A DNA stretch of 44,558 bases from contig JBDRUF010000009.1 of assembly GCA_039801245.1 (NCBI GenBank), positions 1-44,558 on the forward strand, in the 5' to 3' direction. The notes under the pieces were generated by a model. That model saw nothing but the letters and a program-made list of their open reading frames with translations, had not been told where the DNA came from and did no database searches. The DNA comes from a candidate division WOR-3 bacterium. Lineage in GTDB: Bacteria; Hydrothermota; Tepidihabitantia; Tepidihabitantales; Tepidihabitantaceae. Of this stretch, positions 6,567-44,247 are shown in pieces (position 1 is the stretch's first letter; each line of letters starts with the position of its first letter). The position numbers and the translations under genes were made by a program.

Positions 6567-7925
6567 ATGAGCGTGAGGTATTACCTGCAGGTTTACGGCT
6601 GCCAGATGAACCTTTATGAGGCGGATTTGGTGCGTGCCATTCTGAATCAGGCTGGTTACGAAGAAACGGACAATGAGTTTGATTCCGAGGTGCTATTGAT
6701 GATGACCTGTTCGGTGCGCGCCCATGCAGAAAACCGGGCGCTGGGCAGGCTGGCGCAGTTTGTCGGTCTGAAGAAGAAAGGGCAAGCCCAGGTTGTTGGT
6801 GTTCTTGGCTGTATGGCACAAAACCTTAAGGAAAAACTTGTGGAAAAGCATCAGGCGGATATTGTTGTAGGTCCTGACCGGTATCAACTTCTGCCCGAGT
6901 TTATTGTTAGTTGTCTTAGGGGTGATGGACCCAAAATAGCGGTGGATTTTTCCAATGAGTGCTATGAAAATATCCTGCCCGAAAAAAAGGTTGGTGTTAC
7001 CGCGTTTGTCACGATAATGCGCGGTTGCAGTAACTTCTGCTCATACTGCATCGTCCCTTATGTGAAAGGACCAGAGCGCTCAAGACCGGTGGAATCAATA
7101 TTAAAAGAGGTTCACCACCTCGCAAAAATGGGGGTGAAAGAGATTACCCTCCTCGGGCAGAATGTCCTTGCCTATAATCACCGGGGGGTTGACTTTTGTG
7201 CCCTTTTGGAAAAGGTCTGCGCATTCTCGGAAATCAGGCGGGTGAGGTTTCTCACCTCCCATCCGAGGGATCTGGATGAGCGCTTGGTAAGGACAATGGC
7301 ATCCCTGCCTAAGGTCTGTCCGCAGTTGCATCTGCCATTGCAATCCGGTGCCAACCGGATATTAAATTTGATGAACCGCGGCTATACCGTTGAGGAGTAT
7401 TTGAGCAAGGTGGCGCTGGTGCGGAAATACCTCCCTGAGGTCTCCCTTACCACCGACATCATTGTCGCATTTCCCACCGAGACCGAAGAGGAGTTTGAAG
7501 CCACCCTGACCTGTCTTGAAGGGGTGCGATTTGATTATGCCTATATGTTCAGATTTTCTCCCCGACCCGGCACCAGGGCAGCGGAGATTAAGCCATTGGT
7601 TCCCTTACCGGTTGCGAGCGAACGCCTGAGCCGATTGATAGCCACTCAAACCCGGATAACAAAGGAGCTGAGTTCGGCAATGGTTGGCAGGGAATATGAA
7701 CTCCTGATAGAGGGCAAGAGCCCAAAGGGAAACGGCGCTCTGGGCAGAACGCCTCAGGGTAAGGTGGTAATCGTTGACCAAGAGGTTAATAACGGTAATC
7801 TTATAAGAGTGAAGATAACGGCTATTAGTGGCTGGACGCCAGTTGGAATACCAGTTGACAATCCAGCATTTGTCGGAGCCGCTTGCAGCCTAAAGATTAA
7901 CCCTGTCTTGCAACGAGGAGGTTGA
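6567..7925 (+). CDS. miaB: tRNA-2-methylthio-N6-dimethylallyladenosine synthase MiaB
   Basis: A 452-residue radical-SAM methylthiotransferase that adds the 2-methylthio group to i6A37 of tRNA, using two iron-sulphur clusters. The N-terminal UPF0004 domain shows its three cluster cysteines C12 (YGCQMN), C48 (MTCSVR) and C82 (LGCMAQ). The radical SAM triad is C154, C158, C161 in RGCSNFCSYCIVPY. A C-terminal TRAM domain covers about residues 378-450. GCQMN and the CIVPYVKGPERSR segment favour MiaB over MtaB or RimO. It heads a plus-strand operon; its stop overlaps the ribosome-binding region of lapA. Confidence 0.93.
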   Translation: MSVRYYLQVYGCQMNLYEADLVRAILNQAGYEETDNEFDSEVLLMMTCSVRAHAENRALGRLAQFVGLKKKGQAQVVGVLGCMAQNLKEKLVEKHQADIVVGPDRYQLLPEFIVSCLRGDGPKIAVDFSNECYENILPEKKVGVTAFVTIMRGCSNFCSYCIVPYVKGPERSRPVESILKEVHHLAKMGVKEITLLGQNVLAYNHRGVDFCALLEKVCAFSEIRRVRFLTSHPRDLDERLVRTMASLPKVCPQLHLPLQSGANRILNLMNRGYTVEEYLSKVALVRKYLPEVSLTTDIIVAFPTETEEEFEATLTCLEGVRFDYAYMFRFSPRPGTRAAEIKPLVPLPVASERLSRLIATQTRITKELSSAMVGREYELLIEGKSPKGNGALGRTPQGKVVIVDQEVNNGNLIRVKITAISGWTPVGIPVDNPAFVGAACSLKINPVLQRGG

Positions 7926-7928
7926 AAA

Positions 7929-8267
7929 ATGGTGACATTAAGGATAATTCTGATCCTGCTGGCATTTGTGATTCTCTTCATCCTGGGTTGGCAGAACCAG
8001 TGTCCTGTCAGTGAGGTTAGGGTGTTCTTTCGCACCTTTTACGATGTGCCGATTGCCCTGGTTATGCTTTACTCCTTTGCATTTGGTGGCCTCTGCGTGG
8101 GGATTTTCACCATCATCTCCGAAATCAGGTTGCGAGCCCGGTTGCGCCGGCAACGGCATGAGATTGACGCCCTTACCGAAGAGTTGCGTGCCCTGCGAAA
8201 TGCTCCCTTAAGTGTAATTGCAGAAACAGAAAAAAACGAACCGGCTCAAGAAAAGGAAGAGGATTAA
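7929..8267 (+). CDS. lapA: LapA-domain (DUF1049) inner-membrane protein
   Basis: 112 residues with two membrane segments (about 5-22 and 40-62). A basic stretch RLRARLRRQRHE then leads into a short coiled coil and an acidic tail. This is the LapA/YciS (DUF1049) layout. The gene ends directly at the ATG of the LapB homologue, the same pairing as yciS-yciM in E. coli. There the pair participates in lipopolysaccharide assembly and turnover of LpxC; that role here is inferred from family and synteny. GAGGAGG lies 8 bases before the start. Confidence 0.85.
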   Translation: MVTLRIILILLAFVILFILGWQNQCPVSEVRVFFRTFYDVPIALVMLYSFAFGGLCVGIFTIISEIRLRARLRRQRHEIDALTEELRALRNAPLSVIAETEKNEPAQEKEED

Positions 8268-9371
8268 ATGTATCCCCTGATTATTGTCATCCTTGCTTTA
8301 TTAATTGTTGCCCTTTATCCGGTTGTTCGCGACTTCCTCCGGCAACGTAAGAAGACCTTACCCAATTATGTTGAAGGTCTCCAACTATTGCTTGACGGCG
8401 AGGTCGAGAGGGCAAAAATAAAATTAAAGGCAGCGGTGGAGGAGGACACCGGCAATGTTGACGCCTATGTGAGGCTGGGCAACATCTTTCTTGACCAGGG
8501 GGATTTTGAGCGAGCATTGCAGATTCACGAAAGCCTAGCGCTCCGGCGCAATCTTAAAAGGGAGGAGGAGTTAAAGGTATACCGAGCGCTGGTTCGTGAC
8601 TACTTAAAGACCAACCGCCGGGTAAAAGCCATACCCCTCTTGGAGGAAATCGTTCGGGCTGACCGCTCTGACCTTAACAGTATTGAAAATCTTCTTGAAC
8701 TGTATATTGAAAACGACTCCTGGGAAAAGGCAGAAAACCTCCTCAAAGAATGCGGACGGATTCGTTCTCCCCGCGTCGCCAGGCTCTATGCCCAATTTGG
8801 TTATGCCTTTGGGAAGGTAAACCCCCAAAAAGGCATCCAGTGGCTTGAAGAGGCGTTGCGGATAAATCCGAAATCGGGGCTTGCCCATATTTACCTCGGT
8901 GACCTCCAACTCGCCCAGGGGGAAACAGAGGTGGCTATCAAGACTTGGACAAAAATGTTAGACATCGCCCCGGAGAAGAACCGCTTTGTGCGCGAGCGGC
9001 TTGAACGTGCCTATTATGAACTTGGTCGTTATGAGGATGTGGCACAACTCTACCGTCGGTTGTTGCACCGGGTGCCGCATGATACCAGCCTGGCTGTTGC
9101 CCTCGCCGAAATCTATGCCAAAAAGGAGGACCTGGCAGCAGCGATTCACCTTTTGGAGCACTCAGGTAAAAACCAAGATGCAAAAATCGGCATCGCCCTG
9201 GCAGAACTATATCTGCGTCAAGGTAATTTAACCGAGGCGAAAGAACATCTTGACATAGCGGTGCGAGAATTAACCGCCGGGATTAGCGACTGTTGCGGCT
9301 GTGGCAAAAAACTGTCACAAGCTGATTTTCAGTGTCCCGAGTGTCACACCTGGCAGGAAGATTTAGATTAA
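8268..9371 (+). CDS. lapB: LapB/YciM-like TPR protein with C-terminal rubredoxin-type zinc domain
   Basis: 367 residues. An N-terminal membrane anchor (about 3-20) is followed by at least six to eight TPR units (for example AYVRLGNIFLDQGDFERAL and AHIYLGDLQLAQGETEVAI). The end carries CGCGKKL and CPECHTW, a CxxC...CxxC rubredoxin-like module. Anchor, TPR array and C-terminal metal module in this order are the LapB (YciM) architecture. LapB docks FtsH to LpxC in Enterobacteria, so an LPS-type outer membrane is suggested. Stop and start with lapA are adjacent, so the two are coupled. Confidence 0.88.
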   Translation: MYPLIIVILALLIVALYPVVRDFLRQRKKTLPNYVEGLQLLLDGEVERAKIKLKAAVEEDTGNVDAYVRLGNIFLDQGDFERALQIHESLALRRNLKREEELKVYRALVRDYLKTNRRVKAIPLLEEIVRADRSDLNSIENLLELYIENDSWEKAENLLKECGRIRSPRVARLYAQFGYAFGKVNPQKGIQWLEEALRINPKSGLAHIYLGDLQLAQGETEVAIKTWTKMLDIAPEKNRFVRERLERAYYELGRYEDVAQLYRRLLHRVPHDTSLAVALAEIYAKKEDLAAAIHLLEHSGKNQDAKIGIALAELYLRQGNLTEAKEHLDIAVRELTAGISDCCGCGKKLSQADFQCPECHTWQEDLD

Positions 9372-9397
9372 GTGCTTAAATTGCATCCCGAGCTTTT

Positions 9398-11977
9398 GTG
9401 GCAGAAAGGCTGACACCTCTCCTTGCCCAGTACCGAAGGATAAAGGAGCGCTACCCGGAAACCCTGTTGCTTTTCCGAGTAGGTGATTTTTATGAGATGT
9501 TTTATGAGGATGCTGAGATTGGTGCCCGCGCCCTGAACCTTACCCTAACCTCAAGACCCCATGGTCCTAATATCCGTGTGCCGTTGGCGGGAATTCCTGT
9601 CAAGGCGCTGGACAGTTATATTGCCCGGCTCGTTGCTCAGGGTTTCAAGATTGCCATCTGCGACCAGTTAGAGGAACCAAACCGTAATAAACCGGTTGTC
9701 CATCGTGATGTGGTTGAGGTCATCACACCGGGGACCATTACGCGTACCCCGCTTTTAGATGAACAGCGGAACAACTATCTTATGGCGCTATCACCTGCAG
9801 GCGAAATTTGGGGATTGGCCTTTGCCGACCTGACAACAGGTGAGTTTGTTGTAGGAGAAATTAAATCGGCAAACATTGTTGAGGAGATAGCCAAAATCGG
9901 ACCTGCGGAAATCCTCATTCCTCAGAACTGGAGTGATAAATTGCCCATTGAATACCAAAACCGCATCACCCGTCTCGATGACTATTATTTTACCGAAGAG
10001 TTCGCTTTTGATAAACTCACCTCCCATTTAGGTGTAATGAACCTGGACGGTTTTGGTATTGGGGAATTCACCGAAGGGATTTGTGCGGCCGGTGCAATTC
10101 TCCATTACCTTGAACATACGCAGCGGAGCGCGCTTCCCCATCTTCGTCGTGTTACACCATATATACTCAGTGAATATCTATTAATTGACCGGATATCCCG
10201 GCGCAACCTCGAACTGATTGAAAGCCTCCATCCTGAGGAAAACCGGCGCGAACCCTCAAAAACATTGTTAGGGGTCCTCGACCGAACAAAAACCCCGGGG
10301 GGTGCAAGGTTATTGCGACGCTGGCTTCTTGCCCCCCTCCTCTCGGTAAAAAAGATTAACCAGCGCTTAGATGCTGTTGCTGAACTCAAAGAAAATGTTG
10401 CTTCACTTTCAGAACTGCAAGACCTATTGGGTAAAATTGGGGATATAGAACGGATTGTTTCTCGGATCGCCTTAGAGCGGGCAAATGCGCGGGATTTGAT
10501 AGCGTTACGTAACTGGCTGAAGGTTATACCAGAAATTAAAAAACTCCTCTCTGGATTCCGGGCTGAAAGACTAATGTATATTTACAACTCCCTCCAGGAC
10601 TTTGGAGCCGTTGTGGATGACATCGATCGAGTCCTTGTGGATGACCCGCCCGGTGCCATAACCGAAGGCGGGCTAATCCGCCCAGGTTATAATCAAGAAC
10701 TGGATGAGTTACGTGCCATTGCCGGCAATGCCAAGGAGTTTATCGCCGGCATTCAAGAAACCGAACGCCAGCGCACCGGCATACCCAATTTGCGTATCGG
10801 GTATAATTCAGTATTCGGCTATTACATTGAAGTAACCAAATCCTATCTATCACTTGTTCCCAAAAACTACATCCGAAAACAGACCATAGCTAACGGTGAA
10901 AGGTTTATTACCCCGGAACTTAAGGAATACGAAGCCAAGGTATTAAATGCTGAGGAGAGAATCAAGGCGCTCGAATATGAACTTTTCACCCAATTGCGCC
11001 GCCGAATTGCTCCTTCTACCGATAAAATCTTTGAAGCGGCTCTTCTCATTGCCGAAATTGATGTTTTTGCCGCTCTTGCCGCCGTTGCCAACGAACGAAA
11101 TTACACCCGCCCCATTGTGGATGAGTCCAGTAGTATCGAAATCAGGTCTGGCAGACATCCGGTTGTAGAGGCACTAAGTAAGGAACCGTTCATACCTAAC
11201 GACACAATTATTGATAGTGCCAAAGAGCAAATTCTTATTATTACCGGTCCCAATATGGCGGGTAAGTCAACCTATCTTCGGCAAGTGGCGCTGATTGTGA
11301 TAATGGCACAGATGGGGTCATTTGTGCCTGCCGCTTATGCCCGTATCGGTATTGTTGATAAAATCTTCACCCGGATTGGCGCCTCAGACGATGTTGCCCG
11401 AGGTGTTTCCACATTCCTTGCTGAGATGATTGAAACCGCCAATATTTTAAATAACGCCACCTCCCGCAGCCTGGTGGTACTTGATGAGGTCGGACGGGGA
11501 ACTGCCACCAACGACGGTCTGGCAATTGCATGGGCCACGGTTGAACACCTCCATGGCAATGAGAAGTTTTCTCCGAGGACAATCTTTGCCACCCATTACC
11601 ATGAACTCACCGATATTGCTAAACTCCTCCCCCGTGTTAAAAATTATAGTTTCCTTGTACGGGAAAGAGGTGATGAAGTACTTTTCCTCCGCAAAATCAA
11701 ACCCGGACCTGCCGATAAAAGTTATGGTATCGCAGTTGCCAAACTCGCTGGACTTCCCGAATCGGTCATCAATCGAGCGAGGGAAATGCTCATCCATTTT
11801 ACAGAACAAACAGAAATCAACCTCAAACGATTTAATTTACCTGCGGAAACTCTGTTTGCGAGCGACCACTCTATCCATCCTGTAATTGAACGATTGCGGA
11901 GTTTAAATATAAACGAACTCACTCCTCTCGCAGCGTTGAGTTTACTTGCCGAACTGCAGAGACTTGCCCGAGAGTGA
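9398..11977 (+). CDS. mutS: DNA mismatch repair protein MutS
   Basis: 859 residues, the normal MutS1 length. Mismatch-recognition domain I has the F-x-E element in GDFYEMFYEDA. The ATPase domain has Walker A GPNMAGKST (617-625), the LDEVGRGTATNDG Walker B/signature region near 692-704, and the ATHYHEL H-loop. Recognises base mismatches and small loops. The start is GTG at 9398; no strong ribosome-binding site is visible, but it lies only 26 bases after lapB, in the same transcription unit. No mutL is in the window. Confidence 0.95.
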   Translation: MAERLTPLLAQYRRIKERYPETLLLFRVGDFYEMFYEDAEIGARALNLTLTSRPHGPNIRVPLAGIPVKALDSYIARLVAQGFKIAICDQLEEPNRNKPVVHRDVVEVITPGTITRTPLLDEQRNNYLMALSPAGEIWGLAFADLTTGEFVVGEIKSANIVEEIAKIGPAEILIPQNWSDKLPIEYQNRITRLDDYYFTEEFAFDKLTSHLGVMNLDGFGIGEFTEGICAAGAILHYLEHTQRSALPHLRRVTPYILSEYLLIDRISRRNLELIESLHPEENRREPSKTLLGVLDRTKTPGGARLLRRWLLAPLLSVKKINQRLDAVAELKENVASLSELQDLLGKIGDIERIVSRIALERANARDLIALRNWLKVIPEIKKLLSGFRAERLMYIYNSLQDFGAVVDDIDRVLVDDPPGAITEGGLIRPGYNQELDELRAIAGNAKEFIAGIQETERQRTGIPNLRIGYNSVFGYYIEVTKSYLSLVPKNYIRKQTIANGERFITPELKEYEAKVLNAEERIKALEYELFTQLRRRIAPSTDKIFEAALLIAEIDVFAALAAVANERNYTRPIVDESSSIEIRSGRHPVVEALSKEPFIPNDTIIDSAKEQILIITGPNMAGKSTYLRQVALIVIMAQMGSFVPAAYARIGIVDKIFTRIGASDDVARGVSTFLAEMIETANILNNATSRSLVVLDEVGRGTATNDGLAIAWATVEHLHGNEKFSPRTIFATHYHELTDIAKLLPRVKNYSFLVRERGDEVLFLRKIKPGPADKSYGIAVAKLAGLPESVINRAREMLIHFTEQTEINLKRFNLPAETLFASDHSIHPVIERLRSLNINELTPLAALSLLAELQRLARE

Positions 11978-19932: not shown

Positions 19933-20301
19933 TTATTTTGAGGATTCGCCAAGCAAAGGTTTACAGGTTACGAATTCCTTTATGGCCGCAAATCGTTTAG
20001 GTCCAATACCGATAACATTTCTCAGTTCGGCAACCGTTTTAAATCCACCGTGCGTTTCCCGATAGGTAATAATGCGCTGGGCAAGAACAGGACCGATTCC
20101 AGGTAAAGCATCAAGCTCCTCTAAACTGGCATGGTTAATGTCCACCAAACTATCTTTTAGTGGATCTGCTGGCAACTCAACCTCTACCCCAAAGTTTTCA
20201 AGCTGTCTTTTTATCTTAAAATGTCTAACAACAGAAATCAATGAGCCAATAAGGAATGCCGCGGTCAAAAAAACTACCGCTGCCCTTTCACGAGGATTCA
20301 T
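19933..20301 (-). CDS. comEA: ComEA-like helix-hairpin-helix DNA-binding protein
   Basis: 122 residues: one N-terminal membrane anchor (about 8-26), a short linker, then a tandem helix-hairpin-helix domain with [19 protein letters not shown] and [18 protein letters not shown]. This is the ComEA layout: an anchored, extracytoplasmic double-stranded-DNA receptor for natural transformation. Its ATG overlaps the sprA stop by one base (TGATG), so it is the last gene of the folD-sprA operon. No other competence genes are in the window. Confidence 0.85.
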
Positions 20302-23300
20302 CAGAACCTAAATAAAATCCAGATATTCAAATCGGTCCGCTCGTTACTGATGCCAGAAATTGACCTATTGTAACTGTAACCGCTATTGAGGCCAGCTTCA
20401 ATACTACGGGAGAACCGGTAAGATGCGCCCAATGATGTGGCAATTGTATTATCCCTTTGCTGGGGAACTGTATTTCTCTCTTCCCTTTCGCTCCAGACGG
20501 TCTGCTCACGAACTGTTTGGGAATACCGCAACTGCCACGTCAGGCTTAAATCCGAAGAAAATCTAACCCTCCGCAAAAACGGCAACTTCAGACCTTGCGG
20601 GGCAGAAAACGAGTAACTTAAAGAGGCGTTCCCACCTTGTGTCCTGGTATCAGTAAGACTCCGATTACGACCTGTTTCGCTAAGGTAAGAAATTGCTCCT
20701 GAACGGCTGTATTTGAGGCTTAGTGTCGTGGAAACTCGTTTTTTCCAGGTAGTCTGCCAAGATAAAAGCGGGTCCAAATCGACAGCACGATTTTCGGTCC
20801 TGCCGAATATGGTGAGAGTCTCGCCACCAGTAGCAACAGGTAGGAGTTCTCCCCTAATACTCAATCTGCGCCGATAACTACTTGACAACCGGGAATCGGT
20901 AGCAAACTTACTGAACAGATTCTGAACCTTCCCAAGATTAAGTTCAACGCTGGGCCAAGTGAGGTTATGGTCGGCTGTAGCACCCAGTAGAGCCCAGTTT
21001 TTCCCAAAAGTTTGATCATAACTTAACCGCACGGAAAACTCCTTGTACCCCACTCCACTGGAAAAACGGAGGCTGCGAGATAATTCTCGTGTCCTACTCA
21101 ACTGCCCTTGCAATGAATCGTATGGGAAGGTATCGCTTAAACCCAACCTATAAGTCCATGGTGCTGCACCCTGAAACCCGAGGTAATCGCTCGAACGGGA
21201 GACGCTGTAATTGAACTCAATGGGTTCAACGGTGCTAGTAATCTCAGCGAGCATCGACATGAAATTTATCCCGGATCCATGAGAGCGCTCAAATTTATGA
21301 TTAAACACCAGCGTATCTGATGTTGCCTTTGTTGAATCAAACGGTTTCTCAACAGTGTCAGCGTCAGCAAACTTAGGTACCCCGTGCCCCATAACATCCT
21401 TCTGTGTCAGTAAACCTTTCTGGCGAAATCCGGTGGTTCTTTCAATTCGAGAACTCAATTTCTCTGAAAGTTCATTCAAGTCGATAGAAGCGTTCAAACT
21501 TATCTCCCCAGAATTACTGATATTGCGGTAATCGGCATACCCGGCTCCGATTTTTGGTCGCTCACAAGTATAATCACCATCAAATTCAACAGACGGATTG
21601 ATTATATCCCCGATCTCCAGTTCATAAGAAATACCGATGTTTTCACTACGATTCGCCTCACTACCTAAAACAAACCTAAAAATCGTATCGGGGTTAGAAA
21701 CCAAAAGGTCTCTTTCCGAATCCCACCCATACTCTATTGTCAAATCCTCTAACGGCGAAAGGACAATATCAAAACTCCCCATGATACCCCTCCCATGGAG
21801 AGTATCAATCCGAACAGTATCACCACGGATATCGGTGCGATCAGCCCCACCGATACCCACACTGATATCCCGGGGTAGAAAATAAAGTTCACTCTCACCA
21901 CCCAAGGGAATTTTCACTTCTGGTCTAATCCTATAGCTCCACTGCCAACCAGTTGATTTACTGGAATCAAAATTGGGATAGTTGGAATTGCTAGCCCAGC
22001 GACGACGCCAAGAGAAATTCATTGCCTCAATCGTGTAATTGAACAACTTATTTCCGGATTGTTGTTTTGACAGATTGTTAAACGCAACTTCCTGGCTCTG
22101 AGCATAACCAGTCTGTTGGCGCTGCTCACGAGAATTGAGTCTCAAATCTGGCCAGGTGGCGGAGAATTTTGGCAAATTGGACTGCCGCATCCGTGAATAT
22201 GAAAAAGGAATAGCAATCCCCCAGTTGCGTGGTAAAAATCGGTCAAAATTAACTCGCAGGTCTGCACCAATGTTTTGAGCAAAACCACCTGTCTTTACAC
22301 CTCTTCCCTCTGAAAAACGATAGAAATTGGGGTCGGAGTAAGACCACCGTACCCCCAAGGAGAGAAAATCGGCAAGCTGGAAATTTACCTGACTTGTAAA
22401 TGCGTAACCAGGTTCTTTTTTGGGAGCGGTCAATCTAATATCGTTAAACCAAACGCCACCGCTGATTTTATTTTTTTCTCTGTTAGCAATACCGAGCCCA
22501 AACCACCGAATATTTGCCAAAGATGGCAATCCTAATATTGAATATAAAGTTGAGTCTGAATTAACATGGGTATATAACGAGTCGGGAATGACCCCAGATG
22601 AGTCGCGCGCGAGTTTCAACCTGGGTAACGAATCTAATGCTACGATAAATTCATACCATCTCCCGTCTCGGCCGGTAATTTTTCTCCCTTTCGTTATGGG
22701 AGAACGGAACTCGTAATAATTTGCTGAATCTGAGCCAATTCTGATGAAACAGTCCAGTCCATTCCCATCGTCGTGGACATAAAACCTGATTTCCCCATAG
22801 TTGCGATAATCCTCACTCGTGGTATTTGTTTTAGTCACTATTGCCTGCCGGCCGCGATAAAGACCCCGATAACCAAAGAGTAAAGCGGCTTCAGTCTCAA
22901 TCCTTCCAGTTATGTCTCGCTTCAACTCGAAAGGAGAACTATAACTCGTATCGGTCTTTTTAGACACCTGTGATACCCATACCTTTTCATTAGTATCCAC
23001 TGGCACTGAATTTCCTTTAATAATATCATAGATTTTCGGATCGCGCCACTTGCTGCCCGCAAACTGAAGGGAATACAATTCAATCGTATCAGGATTCAAA
23101 AAACCATCAAACCACACTCGCACTAAACGAATATCCTCCCATTTGGGGTTACCAACCTTAGTAAACAATGTTGTGTCCCGCAGGGGCACACGGTACAGAC
23201 GCCAGTTATTAAAAAGTGGTGTAATAAATCTGTCTTCACCAATGGGAATCGTATATTCAAAATAGTGATTGTAGCGGGAAAAGCCGTTACGGTCGAGGTC

Positions 23301-25991
23301 CTCAGAGTCAAGCCGGCGGTTGCCTTCTGTGCCCCCTTGATTATCGTAGGGGTCGTAATCGTCATTACCATCATCAATGGCATCAGGGACCCAAAGTGAA
23401 TCCTCACCAAAAATTGTGTCCAGTCCGGTGTCCTCCCATTCGTCTAAAACGCCGTTGCCATTTCTGTCTTCGGTATCAAGGAATCCATTATAACCTTTAA
23501 TGGCCCCACTTCGATCGCGTCTCGGTGCATCTTCATCTATTGCCATTCCTATAGTCACATGAATATTACCGGTCCTGTGCCCTGTGCGAAGAATCAGCTC
23601 TAAATTTTCAATATCGGTAAAATTCATCCCTAACTGCGCAGCTGGGGCGGTCATTATGCCAGCCCAAGACTCCGGGTCCGCAGAGTCTGGTGTGAAAATG
23701 ACTTTGAGGATCTCCTGGGTTTCATTGCCCTCATCTCCTATAGCCGGTCCAAATACACTATCCTTACGCACCCTATCTTTTGGTGTTGTCCATTTAATAG
23801 GGATTTTTGCAAAGTTGTGGGTATCTTTACCAACCGGGACCGATGCGTAAGACCAGAGCATCGCCGTATTTGTGACCTCGCGCGTGATAACCGTTCCTTC
23901 AAAATCGTCAAGATATGCCACACCACGGGTATTAGGATTTGGTAGGGAAACGGCACCTTCGGTCCTAAGGTCAAATCGAGAAGGACTCTGCGCCCACAAA
24001 ATTGGCAGACGGTCTAAAAAGGCAGTTACCGCATCCGATGTTGTGCTATAGGAAATATCACTTTCGGCTATCATTCTCTGAAAAGGTTCTGATCCTATGG
24101 CTGGTTTTTCTTCGGGAATGCCTTCATTACGATAGAAGAAACTTGACCCAATCTTTCCGTTCTCAAGGAACGACCATTCGGTTCTTGCGCCCATAAGCGA
24201 CTTTTGGGTAATGGAAAACCAAGGTTGATACTCAAATGTTACCTGAATATCAGCATCTGGGGGGAGAGGTTTAAGAAAAGTAATGACGCCGGTAGCGTAG
24301 TCAATCGAGTAATCGGTTCCGTTAATTTTCTGCTGTCCATTGACAATCACCCGTTCCGAACCTTTGATGATATCAGTCTGGCCGAGGTAGTAAGTTTCGG
24401 TAATTGTATAATATGAGACCACTAAAAAATATTTCCTCCCAGCGCCTGGTGGAAGGAAATCTGGGTCAAGGCGATAGATTATTGAGTCCTTAACCGACAA
24501 AAGCGGGGAAATGAATGGTTTAGCCGCAGGGAAGCGAATCATGCCTGTTTTGCTCTCAAATTCAGGATATTCGAGTCTTCCATCACCATTAGGGTCGAGC
24601 CCTAAAAGTTGAAGAAATGAAAAAACAGTGTCACCCCTAATTTCGTAGTCGCTATGTTGTCCTTGGGGATTGTATCGAAAGAGCCGCACCGTATCCAGTT
24701 TCACATCTCCCTGACGAAGTTGATAACAATTGCGGAGGTGAAGTTCCCAAGTGCGAGAAAGGGAATCAGGGACCTCGGGTTTGATTAGACAAAGGATGAG
24801 CGAGTCGCGCAAGGTTTTACCGCCGATGGTATCATTTTCTTTGAAGATGACGACACCGACTATGTGGTTGCGCTCAATCGGGGTGATGAACTCAATGATA
24901 TTGCCGGGTTGAAGGAGGTAATCAACACCCGGCGTTTTTAGGTCAAAGTCGCCACCAGCGCGGTCATAACTCCACCAGGTGCTGTCGCTAATAATAGAGT
25001 CGGGATTATCTGGGAAAACGGTGGCAATGGCTTTGAAGGAAGCCTGGTTGTTACTTGAGTTTTTGTCGTCGATGTAGACACGGAGATTTAGCAGGCGCTC
25101 GGCGCTATCAACACCGGGCAATCGGTAAAAGCGGCGCTGAATGAAGTCTGTGTCCCAGATTGTATCTGTGGTTACCCGGCGTTTGCCAGTAAAGGTCTGG
25201 GTTTGAGTTTGTGAGCCCTCACGCGAAGCGATTGCATACACATCAATCCCGGCAATTTTACCTTTCGCAGAAATACCAAAGAGTCCGTGATGTGCGGGTA
25301 AATCCCCGGTATAGATACTTCCAGGTATATCAAGCCTGGTGTCGCCGAGTTCAACCGAACGCACAACCTCATCCTCGGTTCCGGTGTACTGAAGTTTAAT
25401 TTTGTTTTGTTGTTCATCCCGCTCTGAATCATGGTCAATTGTTATCTTAGTGCGGTCCCCGATCGTACCATTCACAGTAACAGCAAGTTGTTGTTCCATC
25501 TTGAGTTCTGGAAAAAGGCTTTGTCCTGTCATTGTTCTGGTTACCCCTTTAAGGACAGTGGAGCTACCGCCCAAGGTAATCCTGTCTCTACCCGAGATGT
25601 CTATTTTTGACCCCTCACCCAAAAGGGGAAGCCGCGGTAACTGGATGTCTGGAATCAGTCCAGCAGGCTCAGACGCCAATTCCCGCCTTTCCAGCATCCG
25701 ATGCGCCTCCTCCTGCCAAGTTGAAATTATCGCCTCTTTGATAGAATAATTTAGATACTCATCGATAGGAATGATACTTTCCAAACCGAGGTAAACATCT
25801 CCATACCACTTCTCTAAGAAAACGACGCCTATAGAATAATCAGGACGGGTGATAATCCGGGGAGGCTCAATGAGCGAATAAGACCATCCCAAGCTGATGG
25901 CGATTAATGAAAAAGCCCTAATCCAAAACCACCAACGCCAATCTATTTTCATTTTACCATAGTCTCTCCGATCGTCGGTATTGTGTTTCAT
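20301..25991 (-). CDS. sprA: SprA/Sov-type outer-membrane translocon of type IX secretion
   Basis: 1896 residues (Bacteroidota SprA is about 2400, from memory). Family marks: an N-terminal stretch with [20 protein letters not shown] and [25 protein letters not shown] near residue 700; Asp/Asn-rich calcium-binding-like loops ([14 protein letters not shown], and [18 protein letters not shown] near 840); then a very long region of amphipathic strands ending in Phe (WILFRF), as expected for an outer-membrane barrel. In type IX secretion this is the giant barrel through which tailed cargo leaves. ATG 25991 abuts the dxs stop; an internal ATG at 25952 ([10 protein letters not shown]) would give a cleaner signal peptide. 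No other type IX component is in the window. Confidence 0.85.
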
Positions 25992-40909: not shown

Positions 40910-41536
40910 TCAGCGGATGATTGGCAGCCAGTCATGAAAGAGAAAATAAAACCTGCCAATCAAAAGGGAGACACGCGCCATCACCGTGTAGCCAAACGAT
41001 GCCCCAAAAGCAACCATAATAAAAACTATCCCGATTCTTGACAGGACACCCAAAAGACCCTTGTGCTCCTTTGAGAAGTAGAAGTAGGTAAGGGTGGTAA
41101 TCACACCGATATAAATCACCGCATTGTTCAGGTTAATCAAGGGTCTTAATGTGTCTGATATCTGGGGCAAGAGATAGCCCTGAACCGATGCGATGAGACC
41201 AAGACCAGCACCGATGCCGATGGTAAATGAGATTGGCCAGCGGGAGAGCCAGACCAGTTTCGGAATTGAGCGCAGAAGCATCATGATGCCCAAGAGCGCG
41301 GGCAGAATCAAAATATATGCCTCAAGGTAGTTGCGCGCGCTCAGGTTGGTTCTGAAGGTGTCAACAAGCATCGGATAGACATCAAAAGCCCAGGCATAGA
41401 TAACGGCAAAGCCCGCCGAGATGCCCACATAGATGTGTTCGGCAGCACGGTAAAGCGGGTTGTCCTTGTATAAAAATGAGAGGATGGCGATTGTCAGGGT
41501 GGCGGCAATCCAGGTGCCGATGATGTCAAGAATCAT
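40910..41536 (-). CDS. Unknown integral membrane protein (last gene of the four-gene membrane operon)
   Basis: 208 residues with about six membrane segments (near 4-22, 35-55, 70-90, 100-118, 133-150, 165-190). The early stretch YKDNPLYRAAEHIYVGISAGFA looks conserved in style but I do not recognise the family. No signal peptide, no metal or nucleotide motif. The ATG directly follows the stop of the upstream gene with no gap, so production must be coupled to the other three members. Confidence 0.75.
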   Translation of the reverse strand: MILDIIGTWIAATLTIAILSFLYKDNPLYRAAEHIYVGISAGFAVIYAWAFDVYPMLVDTFRTNLSARNYLEAYILILPALLGIMMLLRSIPKLVWLSRWPISFTIGIGAGLGLIASVQGYLLPQISDTLRPLINLNNAVIYIGVITTLTYFYFSKEHKGLLGVLSRIGIVFIMVAFGASFGYTVMARVSLLIGRFYFLFHDWLPIIR

Positions 41537-42361
41537 CTACTTCCTGCCCCTTCTGCGCGCGATGATAAACCCGAGGTTACCAAGGATTAAAAGGATGATT
41601 AAAAGTGCGTGTGCGGTTGACTGTGCCGGCATACCCAATGTTGCCGCCCCGGGCCTTTCCACCAGTGCCTCATATTCAGATGCACCCTGCAGACCGCCGA
41701 TGATGCCCTCAATCTGATGCGCGCTGTAATACTGAAACATCCCCGGCGCGTTGACACCGGTGCAGCCAACAATTATCTTTTGATTAAATCGGGCACCGGC
41801 ATACATAATCCAGGCATCGGCAACCGCGCCATGTGCCAGACTGACCAAAAGGTCAATGTCGTGATAGTTGTGTACCCGGCGCATAAACTCAAAAGAGTCC
41901 AAGGGCACCCCCCGATAGTCGGTCTTGAAAAAGTCCCGAATCTCCCTGCCGATACCGACCATCATTGCGGTAAAACCGGGACGGTAACCGATATTGACAT
42001 AATCCTTACCATAAACCTTGCCGTATTCCGGTGCCACCTGATTTAAGGCGATCTCGCCAATGGGCAAACCGAGCGCCAGCTGACCGGTCAGGATAACCTT
42101 TAAATTTCTCTTAAAGCAGTGGCGCAGAATCGCAATCAGCATCGGCTGCACCTCAGGTGCCGATGAGGGGTCAAAGTCAATGGAAATCATCACCACCGAG
42201 TTCTCGGGCAGAGATTCAACCGCATTAAAGGCGTTCCGCACCGGCTCGGAAACCCTCACAGAAATCTTCGGCTTGACAATCAAAGGCAAAAGCACCACCA
42301 GGGCAAGGAGAAGGTAGAGAATCCTGCGGTCAATTGCTGAGATTCTTTCCCAGAAATTCAT
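41537..42361 (-). CDS. Unknown membrane-anchored alpha/beta protein of the four-gene operon
   Basis: 274 residues: an N-terminal membrane segment (about 15-28), a ~210-residue soluble alpha/beta domain, and a C-terminal segment (about 248-266) followed by RRRGRK. The basic tail suggests both ends are cytoplasmic, placing the domain outside the membrane. The domain shows strands such as NSVVMISIDFD, LKVILTGQ, YVNIGYRPG and KIIVGCTGV, and a GMFQYYSAHQIEGIIGGLQG block. I do not recognise the family. Gaps to its neighbours are 3 bases and 0 bases. Confidence 0.75.
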   Translation of the reverse strand: MNFWERISAIDRRILYLLLALVVLLPLIVKPKISVRVSEPVRNAFNAVESLPENSVVMISIDFDPSSAPEVQPMLIAILRHCFKRNLKVILTGQLALGLPIGEIALNQVAPEYGKVYGKDYVNIGYRPGFTAMMVGIGREIRDFFKTDYRGVPLDSFEFMRRVHNYHDIDLLVSLAHGAVADAWIMYAGARFNQKIIVGCTGVNAPGMFQYYSAHQIEGIIGGLQGASEYEALVERPGAATLGMPAQSTAHALLIILLILGNLGFIIARRRGRK

Positions 42362-42364
42362 AAT

Positions 42365-43069
42365 CTATGATGAGAGATAGGTTCGCTCAATTCCTAAGAT
42401 GATGCGCAATGACATCGCAATCCCACCTAAGGCGAGACCGATGCCAATCCCCCTGCCTGCGGCCGCCTGCGGAATCGCCATCAGCCAGTCCTTTATCAGA
42501 GCAAAAAGTTCCACCCTTTTCAGCGCATCAGGGTCGGTTTTAGGGAAGATTAGGTGGATGAACTGGCTAATTCCCTGCCAGATGGAACTACCCAAAGGCA
42601 CATTGCCCAGCATCACCAGGCAGGCGGCAATCAACAGCAGACTCGCACCAAGGTTACGAATCCGAAACGCCCGATACGCCGCGGAGAAGATGAAAAAGGC
42701 AAGGGTGGCAAACATCGTCGCCTGCAAAGGGATAATCATATACTTGTAAAGCCACATAAACGGCGCGCGCAGGGCAAAGGGGCTCGCAAACCTGACCCAG
42801 GAGTAAAGACCAAGACCGAGGGTGGCAAATAGGCTCAAAACCAGAAGCAGGCTGTAAAACCAGCCCTTTTCCTTACGGATGACCTTTAAGAGATGATGCC
42901 TAGTCAAGGAGTCAAGACCCAAAAGGAATGTGAAACCGGAGATGATGGCATACCAGTTGAGGAAGCGGGACTCAAGGTCGCCAAAGGGCTTGTGCGGAAT
43001 AAAGAAGGCGACGATGAGTAAAAGCGCTGTAAAGAGGACAATCAAAAGCGGGATGTTGCGTTTAAGCAT
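42365..43069 (-). CDS. Unknown multi-pass membrane protein of the four-gene operon
   Basis: 234 residues with about six membrane segments (near 6-24, 38-55, 72-95, 110-130, 140-156, 205-222). Basic cytoplasmic loops include RHHLLKVIRKEKG and RAFRIRN. No recognisable domain, signal peptide or catalytic motif. It follows the fibronectin-III gene by 3 bases and precedes the next by 3 bases. A structural or channel-like partner of the other three is the simplest guess, but it is only a guess. Confidence 0.75.
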   Translation of the reverse strand: MLKRNIPLLIVLFTALLLIVAFFIPHKPFGDLESRFLNWYAIISGFTFLLGLDSLTRHHLLKVIRKEKGWFYSLLLVLSLFATLGLGLYSWVRFASPFALRAPFMWLYKYMIIPLQATMFATLAFFIFSAAYRAFRIRNLGASLLLIAACLVMLGNVPLGSSIWQGISQFIHLIFPKTDPDALKRVELFALIKDWLMAIPQAAAGRGIGIGLALGGIAMSLRIILGIERTYLSS

Positions 43070-43072
43070 AGT

Positions 43073-44200
43073 TTAGGTTGGCGGTGTGAACCAGTTGACA
43101 ATTGCGGTAAAAACCCGCTCAAACACCGGGATTTTTGCCCCGGCTGTGCCCAAAAGGACAAATGCGGTGATGAGGACAATCAGGACGAGTTTGATGAAGT
43201 CCTCACCCTTGATTGTGCCCAGCATCACCGGCTCGGGCTTGAGATAGCAGGAGGCGGCATAGATTTCCTCACCAATCATCGTATAGTCACACGCAGCAAC
43301 AAAGAAGGGCAACTGGGTCGTCTCGGTAGTGCCGGCAAGCTGGATTGCGCCGGTTGTATGACCGGTCTCTGCCATAATCAGCGATTCGGCATAGAAATAT
43401 CCCAGCCAGAAGATTGCCCCGGGCTTTTCCCGAAGGATGATGCCATCAACACCAGCCGCATAGCCGAACTGGTCTGATGTCAGAAAAGAGATGTTGTCCT
43501 GGTTGTAAAGGTCGGGTCTGCCCGCCTCGGTATATGCCTCTTTCACCGTCTCCTGGGCTGCGGTCATCACAATCGGGTCGGAATTGGGAACAATCAGCCT
43601 GACCGCATATTCGGCAGCCTTGCGCGCAATCCGGCGCAGAAGCGGCAGGGCGGCAATCACCACCATATCGGTAATATACCCAAGACCAAAACTGAATAGA
43701 ATCGGCTTACCCATCTCGGTTGCCCTGCCCAGAGCGTCATCAATCGCATCCAGACCGCTGATTTTGCGGATGAACATCATTTTCCCTCTCCGCGCCAACA
43801 GGATGTAATAGATAAAGATGGCGCTGATAAAGATGGTAAGAATCAAGACATTTACCCTGCCGGTGTTGAACCACTGAGCCTGAGGCACAACTGGACCAGA
43901 AACCGGCGAATCGGCAGAGTCAGAAAGGGAATAGGCACGGACAAAATAGTAATATTCTTTGCCATTCCGCAAAAGGGAGTCGGTATCAAGATAGTCATTC
44001 TTGGTTAAGAGTTCGCTTGTGATAGGGGCAAAATCTTTATCAGGTTCATCCGAGCGAAAAAGCCGATAGCCCAGAACCGATTTAGGTTGGGGATGGCTCC
44101 AGGTGATAACAACCGCCTGCCCCTGGTCATTGGGATTATCCCTGACAATCACCGACTCCGGCGGCGCAATTGAGAAAAGCCAGAAAATCAGACCACTCAT
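43073..44200 (-). CDS. Fibronectin-III plus DUF6754-like membrane protein (head of the four-gene operon)
   Basis: 375 residues. A short hydrophobic N-terminus, a fibronectin type III domain (about 12-105, with VVITWSHP and YRLFRSDEPD), and a membrane segment (about 116-136) followed by RRGK. Next comes a ~190-residue domain (GLDAIDDALGRATEMGKPI, LPLLRRIARKAAEYAVRLIV, LPFFVAACDYTMIGEEIYAA), then a second membrane segment (about 337-356) and a short tail. The middle domain resembles what I remember as DUF6754; function unknown. By charge the FN3 domain should be outside and the DUF domain inside. Weak ribosome-binding site; short leader. Confidence 0.8.
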   Translation of the reverse strand: MSGLIFWLFSIAPPESVIVRDNPNDQGQAVVITWSHPQPKSVLGYRLFRSDEPDKDFAPITSELLTKNDYLDTDSLLRNGKEYYYFVRAYSLSDSADSPVSGPVVPQAQWFNTGRVNVLILTIFISAIFIYYILLARRGKMMFIRKISGLDAIDDALGRATEMGKPILFSFGLGYITDMVVIAALPLLRRIARKAAEYAVRLIVPNSDPIVMTAAQETVKEAYTEAGRPDLYNQDNISFLTSDQFGYAAGVDGIILREKPGAIFWLGYFYAESLIMAETGHTTGAIQLAGTTETTQLPFFVAACDYTMIGEEIYAASCYLKPEPVMLGTIKGEDFIKLVLIVLITAFVLLGTAGAKIPVFERVFTAIVNWFTPPT

Positions 44201-44219
44201 TATCCAACTAATAACCTTG

Positions 44220-44247
44220 AGGATACCAGAAGACCTAGCCCTGTCAA
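44220..44247 (-). promoter_or_regulatory. Promoter of the four-gene membrane operon
   Basis: Minus-strand TTGACA (44242-44247), 16-base spacer, TATCCT (44220-44225), 19 bases before the ATG at 44200, giving a leader of about a dozen bases. Confidence 0.6.

Follow-up and report, generated by a model that had tools for sequence, protein, structure and literature searches.

A conserved four-gene unit of membrane proteins in a candidate division WOR-3 bacterium and its linkage to a GlmL-type ATPase

Contig JBDRUF010000009.1 of a candidate division WOR-3 bacterium (assembly GCA_039801245.1) was analysed over positions 1 to 44,558 of the forward strand, and this whole stretch of 44,558 nucleotides is here called the window. 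Near its end lie four intact open reading frames (ORFs) of the minus strand, here designated A, B, C and D, which encode membrane proteins. Gene A (43,073-44,200, minus strand) codes for a protein of 375 amino acids with a signal-like N-terminus, an FN3 domain, a transmembrane segment, the alpha/beta domain DUF6754 and a second transmembrane segment. Gene B (42,365-43,069, minus strand) codes for a six-pass protein of 234 amino acids, gene C (41,537-42,361, minus strand) for a protein of 274 amino acids in which an alpha/beta domain is framed by one transmembrane segment on each side, and gene D (40,910-41,536, minus strand) for a protein of 208 amino acids with six or possibly seven transmembrane segments. 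The ORF coordinates gave gaps of 3, 3 and 0 bases for A/B, B/C and C/D, as stated in the original prediction, which was made from the letters of the window. A single promoter had also been proposed. Here, a consensus scan identified a good candidate, TTGACA-16-TATCCT with a TG extension (44,220-44,247, minus strand), which precedes the ATG of A by about 20 bases and agrees with a sigma-70-like promoter at 10 of 12 positions. However, sigma-70-like matches in this region were no more numerous than in shuffled sequences (5 versus 4.6 +/- 2.2), so that a promoter upstream of A is plausible but unproven.

Residues 107-354 of A (43,139-43,882, minus strand) were identified as DUF6754 by their match to Pfam PF20539 (363.9 bits, cut-off 27, E 4.8e-109). 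The region preceding them, approximately residues 15-104 (43,889-44,158, minus strand), was assigned to the FN3 fold both by profile comparison with Protein Data Bank (PDB) sequences and by Foldseek, which together delimit about residues 15-105; the Foldseek match to an FN3 domain of titin had an E value of 1.5e-6 and a TM-score of 0.80 on the target. The AlphaFold2 model of A reached a predicted local distance difference test (pLDDT) score of 93.0 and a predicted template modelling (pTM) score of 0.80. Transmembrane profiles over 45-57 homologues revealed two transmembrane segments in addition to the signal-like N-terminus, and the two-pass FN3 and DUF6754 architecture originally described for A was thereby borne out. 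From the charge bias averaged over the same homologues, the alpha/beta domain between the two segments is probably cytoplasmic, with the FN3 domain outside the cytoplasm. The number of FN3 domains varies among the homologues, and those of the loci L089 and L053 apparently contain two in tandem. Many invariant residues of A, namely G172, P205, G267, E272, G290-T291 and G310-E311-E312, are located where strands end on their C-terminal side or immediately beyond, a position that is common for the ligand site in ligand-binding alpha/beta domains. The matches listed by Foldseek for A all concerned the FN3 domain, none the DUF6754 domain.

For B, C and D, no match above cut-off to a Pfam, NCBIfam or PDB family was obtained, and Pfam scans of all members of the families C and D returned scattered weak matches only. 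Searches of PDB sequences with C and with the profiles of the four families gave the FN3 domain of A as the sole match. In these Pfam, NCBIfam and PDB profile searches, no member of the set was thus assigned to a characterised family with an unrelated role. B contains six transmembrane segments by hydropathy over 50 homologues, is predicted from charge bias to have both termini inside, and carries the residues R133, R206 and R229, which are invariant in its family. D has six, possibly seven, such segments by hydropathy over its homologues and is predicted by charge bias to have its N-terminus outside; an alignment of 45 homologues revealed the motif FGASFGYTVMARxSLLIGR. The proposal of two six-pass proteins therefore holds for B and, for D, with the reservation of a possible seventh segment. 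Profile-profile comparison detected no similarity between B and D.

The alpha/beta domain of C was modelled by AlphaFold2 with a pLDDT of 95.9 and a pTM of 0.91, and transmembrane profiles over 45-57 homologues placed one segment on each side of it, in agreement with the earlier description of this protein. By the charge bias of these homologues, the domain of C is probably outside the cytoplasm, and both termini, which are basic, are inside. The two globular alpha/beta modules originally proposed were thus both recovered in the models of A and C, and they are now placed, by charge bias, probably on opposite sides of the membrane. In both models, a domain of six strands alternating with helices is enclosed by two transmembrane helices, and each helix or strand of the one has its counterpart at the same place in the order of the other. 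A search of PDB folds with the model of C by Foldseek gave nothing below E 1e-3.

The genome from which the window derives (1.70 Mb in 70 contigs, 97% complete) contains three full A-B-C-D operons, on the contigs C9 (the window), C24 and C26. The proteins of the C24 and C26 copies are 47% (A), 43-46% (B), 37% (C) and 49% (D) identical to those of the window copy. In a quick tree of 113 A proteins, in which 27 of the 110 inner branches are drawn open, the three copies fall into three separate clades, each shared with members from other genomes, which identifies them as old paralogues and not as recent duplicates. A small MazG-like gene is located just upstream of A in the C24 copy (L003:1122-1421), and a MazG-like neighbour (cluster #17) was identified in five other loci.

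A scan of public genomes revealed 573 confirmed relatives of A. The 80 loci examined were those with the best matches to the A protein of the window among these relatives, a choice biased to near relatives which still covers about ten candidate phyla. The loci derive from WOR-3/Stahlbacteria/Caldifarciminota, Zixibacteria, Eisenbacteria, Latescibacterota, Poribacteria, Fermentibacteria, Coatesbacteria, Edwardsbacteria, TA06 and Cloacimonadota, and from one genome titled Deltaproteobacteria. Together with the loci of the window genome they contain 113 A genes, and in 95 of these cases B, C and D come next, in this order, the median gaps being 10, -1 and -4 bases. For 13 of the A genes without the full set, the contig ends within 3.2 kb; in L041 the C gene is split, in L023 D was not recognisable, and in L032, L047 and L067 A stands alone. 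The latter three belong to one clade of the A tree, together with L045 and L070, which hold the full set. Two or three ABCD units in tandem are common, for example in L057, L071, L080 and L085. The neighbourhood survey thus showed that the four genes travel together in a fixed order and do not occur mostly as unlinked singletons. Such a recurrence, observed in most of the 80 loci and three times within the window genome, is far beyond chance expectation. This conserved linkage supports the stable four-part envelope complex proposed earlier, in which the products would also be physically associated, as far as can be judged from gene order.

In the phylum of the window organism, A was identified in 140 of 147 genomes and C in 144 of 147. 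A comparison of two tables by eye showed as many A as C genes in about two thirds of these genomes and a difference of no more than one in nearly all. Exceptions include G047, with no A and two C genes, and G089, with seven A and five C genes; some of the absences are due to incomplete assemblies.

Clustering of the neighbouring genes and inspection of the maps revealed three recurrent genes just upstream of A, coding for a protein of about 120 amino acids (designated #5), an ATPase of the MutL/GlmL type, which belongs to the acetate and sugar kinase/Hsc70/actin (ASKHA) superfamily, and a soluble protein of about 373 amino acids (designated P0). The GlmL cluster matched PF13941 with an E value of 1.8e-126. 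In L099, from the same phylum, gcvPB (named from its sequence), #5, GlmL, P0, A, B, C, D and a second A, B and C form one tight operon with short gaps or overlaps, and in L101, also from this phylum, the order is GlmL-P0-A-ABCD-ABCD. GlmL and P0 adjoin ABCD in 13-15 loci of other phyla. The original description of an undescribed system of four genes stands as to its novelty and was incomplete as to its parts, to which the GlmL-type ATPase, P0 and the small protein #5 also belong.

In the window genome, the GlmL protein matched PF13941 with 425.5 bits (E 8.3e-128), and its sequence retains DCGSTTTK and DIGGATTD, the ASKHA phosphate motifs, in intact form. Its gene lies on contig C6 (L094:4214-10852) at the end of the row gcvT-gcvH-gcvPA-gcvPB-#5-GlmL. 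These gcv genes of glycine cleavage were considered as a clue to function; since they stay with GlmL in this genome and ABCD does not, the gcv link may reflect a shared operon only. The linkage of gcv genes and GlmL was also observed in loci from Fermentibacteria and Eisenbacteria, some with a lipoate-ligase-like gene nearby. The P0 gene of the window genome is located on contig C4, where it overlaps the start of a gene for an outer-membrane protein of the PorV/PorQ family (L096:8914-10931).

P0 showed weak matches to barrel-sandwich families, RnfC_N with 20.5 bits (cut-off 25.6, E 5e-4) and NQRA_N with 16.1 bits (cut-off 25, E 0.014), and comparison with NCBIfam gave chance-level matches only. 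This raised the possibility of a redox-driven ion pump of the Rnf/Nqr type, with B and D as an inverted pair of six-pass proteins and P0 as the barrel-sandwich subunit corresponding to RnfC or NqrA. The predicted opposite orientations of B and D would agree with such a pump, as would the two matches of P0, both of which are below cut-off. However, neither B nor D has a cysteine that is conserved at 90% or more, the two proteins are not similar to each other, no flavoprotein, Fe-S or flavin-site subunit was found among the frequent neighbours, and a GlmL ATPase has no place in Rnf or Nqr. A pump of this kind is highly improbable, and it was rejected on the missing cysteines and the missing homology of B and D.

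The partner proteins were also followed by their distribution. Of the 147 home-phylum genomes, 139 contain GlmL and likewise 139 contain P0. Two genomes, G126 and G127 (94 and 95% complete, contamination at most 1%), jointly lack A, C, GlmL and P0. GlmL was above cut-off in 24 of 25 ABCD genomes that were reached through the loci, mostly from other phyla, and in none of 14 well-known control genomes. In L098, a single ORF of 950 amino acids (6760-9612) is a natural fusion of GlmL (residues 1-560) and P0 (residues 592-950), and in L100 and L102 the genes corresponding to the two halves are adjacent. From this fusion and from the adjacency of the genes it is concluded that GlmL and P0 very probably act together; linkage and co-occurrence suggest that the two may act with ABCD. 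This second, longer type of GlmL, fused to a P0-like domain, was also observed in reading frames of 850-985 amino acids in G057, G059, G060, G062 and G064. The fused gene of L098 does not adjoin ABCD.

As a tentative reading, to which we assign somewhat less than an even chance, the ABCD proteins form one inner-membrane complex that is driven by the GlmL-type ATPase and P0 and serves transport, extraction or remodelling at the cell envelope. B and D would be the polytopic cores of this complex. GlmL, together with P0, would dock on the cytoplasmic alpha/beta domain of A and on loops of B and D, and binding or hydrolysis of ATP by GlmL would cause a conformational change in the B-D core, which would be passed to the domain of C and to the FN3 arm of A in the periplasm. 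Each ABCD paralogue may serve its own substrate or partner, with one GlmL and one P0 usually serving all of them, and #5, encoded upstream of GlmL, may be an accessory subunit. The wider proposal, a new class of ATP-driven inner-membrane machine which is powered via P0 by a GlmL-type ASKHA ATPase, is composed of an inverted polytopic B/D pair and of the alpha/beta domains of A and C on the two sides of the membrane, and belongs, in multiple copies, to the core systems of WOR-3 and of about ten further candidate phyla, is considered possible and is made with marked caution.

Several points weigh against this reading. The physical association of A to D with GlmL and P0 is deduced from gene linkage, fusion and co-occurrence. 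Five of the 113 A genes have no B, C or D nearby: the three lone genes, and those of L064 and L068, which belong to the 13 near a contig end and have none of these genes in the remaining 1.5-1.8 kb. In G058, G059 and G061, two A genes are accompanied by four C genes. In the window genome itself, GlmL and P0 adjoin none of the three ABCD copies; all parts are kept there, in a scattered arrangement. G126 and G127 belong to one genus, and their lack of all these components is a single joint absence, to be counted once. Relatives of GlmL assist B12-dependent mutases as accessory proteins and are not known to drive work at membranes. Finally, profile-profile comparison of A and C gave no similarity, even when secondary structure derived from the models was added; a like layout is therefore claimed for the two proteins, a common fold is not supported by this comparison, and their common descent is unproven.

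The WOR-3 isolate sy37 has been described as a diderm with few ABC (ATP-binding cassette) transporters (PMC12285271), which leaves room for another transport system. As far as tested, the unit itself is not an ABC transporter: the operon has no ABC ATPase, and a neighbour of the ABC type (cluster #19), found in 5 of 80 loci, lies outside it. Genes for ExbB-ExbD-TonB and for TonB-dependent receptors follow the operon in several loci of WOR-3/Stahlbacteria and, as a second group, in the Fermentibacteria, which is a hint of outer-membrane traffic; most loci lack these genes. In L021 (12153-17274), the genes downstream of ABCD code for a DUF4388 protein, for two soluble proteins without assignment and two small membrane proteins, and then for ExbB, ExbD (mostly in two copies) and TonB; this arrangement was also observed at the corresponding positions of L017, L027, L028, L029, L036 and L086.

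A DUF4388 gene follows D in 7-8 loci, and since DUF4388 is a domain common in signalling proteins, this would also suit a sensor, which would bind an external ligand by means of the FN3 arm and of C's outer domain and relay the signal through B and D to the DUF6754 domain and to GlmL/P0. The predicted topology, with FN3 outside and a globular domain inside, agrees with this, and the several divergent paralogues per genome could correspond to several ligands. However, no kinase, cyclase, transcription or response-regulator domain was identified in A to D or in the genes most often found beside them, an ATPase together with two polytopic proteins in each unit exceeds the needs of a sensor, and near-universality in the phylum suggests a housekeeping role. 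A sensor, which with a transporter had been suggested originally, is thus unlikely, and because of the link to an ATPase an energised machine is favoured over a pure sensor.

The clustered invariant acidic and polar residues at the strand ends of A and C could instead belong to a membrane-bound enzyme with catalytic domains in the cytoplasm (A) and outside (C), in which B and D hold and pass on a lipid or small-molecule intermediate and GlmL/P0 serve as reactivase or chaperone. GlmL-type proteins are thought to have this function for B12 mutases, and the GlmL-family partner has intact phosphate motifs. In the Foldseek search, C was weakly similar to glycosyltransferase-type and Rossmann enzymes and to a molybdenum cofactor (MoCo) carrier protein. 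However, none of these matches of C is below E 1e-3, the DUF6754 domain had no match among those listed, no catalytic motif could be recognised, and the FN3 arms, sometimes two in tandem, better fit a structural or binding role. An enzyme complex is therefore regarded as an alternative that is rather unlikely.

The window also contains, at 20,301-25,991 on the minus strand, a gene for a protein of 1896 amino acids matching Sov/SprA, the outer-membrane translocon of type IX secretion (TIGR04189, E 1.8e-141), outside the Bacteroidota. ABCD might thus be the missing inner-membrane engine of SprA-type (type IX-like) secretion, in place of GldL and GldM. The overlap of P0 with the PorV/PorQ-family gene in the same genome would agree with this, and domains of the sorting-tail type were present in all 14 genomes checked, with 15-124 per genome and 84 in the window genome. 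In 19 genomes, some from the home phylum and some from others, a search without positive control gave no GldL match above cut-off, and an inner-membrane motor of the type IX-like system was not evident by this search. However, 73 and 52 sorting-tail domains were counted in G126 and G127, the two genomes devoid of A, C, GlmL and P0, A to D match no type IX secretion model, and no GldL/GldM-type match was obtained in NCBIfam up to E 1. As far as tested in these two genomes, ABCD is not needed for keeping the genes of type IX-like cargo, which weakens the motor reading, and such a role is very unlikely.

The seven families A, B, C, D, GlmL, P0 and #5 represent an undescribed system, for which no description was found in the open-access literature. 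No paper on DUF6754 was found there, and the open-access papers on WOR-3 genomes and on the isolate do not mention such a system under the terms searched. The unit is near-universal in one phylum, occurs in many others and is often present in several diverged copies per genome, so that it is probably a basic part of the envelope of a large fraction of uncultured bacteria. For the GlmL/MutL-family genes of these genomes, whose scores are far below the curated cut-off of GlmL, this provides a concrete role that can be tested. One WOR-3 bacterium is now cultured (PMC12285271), which makes it testable what the envelope machine moves or binds.

A clearly belongs to PF20539, a Pfam entry for a domain whose function is itself unknown, and no description of the fixed A-B-C-D unit, of the outer FN3 arm or of the GlmL/P0 partners was found for it. 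The domain of C has a distant match to the fold of the MoCo carrier protein (2iz7, SLOG-like; TM-score 0.56 on the target, E 0.01), which is weak, and C differs from it by its flanking membrane segments and by its predicted location outside the cytoplasm. At the level of Pfam (PF13941), the partner ATPase is a GlmL/MutL member, with intact ASKHA phosphate motifs. However, it is below the equivalog cut-offs of NCBIfam, where the family comprises GlmL and a GlmL-related ornithine protein; for GlmL proper, the accessory protein of methylaspartate mutase, the values are 226.7 versus 475 bits. GlmL is classically found with mutase subunits, whereas the genes linked to it here are gcv genes, #5, P0 and ABCD. 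With Rnf and Nqr, the system shares a predicted inverted pair of six-pass proteins and a soluble subunit, part of which weakly resembles RnfC_N, and it differs from them by its ATPase and by having no redox subunit. General Pfam and NCBIfam scans, with no dedicated comparison, assigned B, C and D to none of the families of type IV pili or type II secretion. GlmL presumably belongs to a hydantoinase-like branch, unlike the actin-like ATPases PilM and GspL. The machines built on PilM and GspL are nevertheless similar in plan, since there, too, a cytosolic ASKHA ATPase is combined with membrane proteins reaching into the periplasm.

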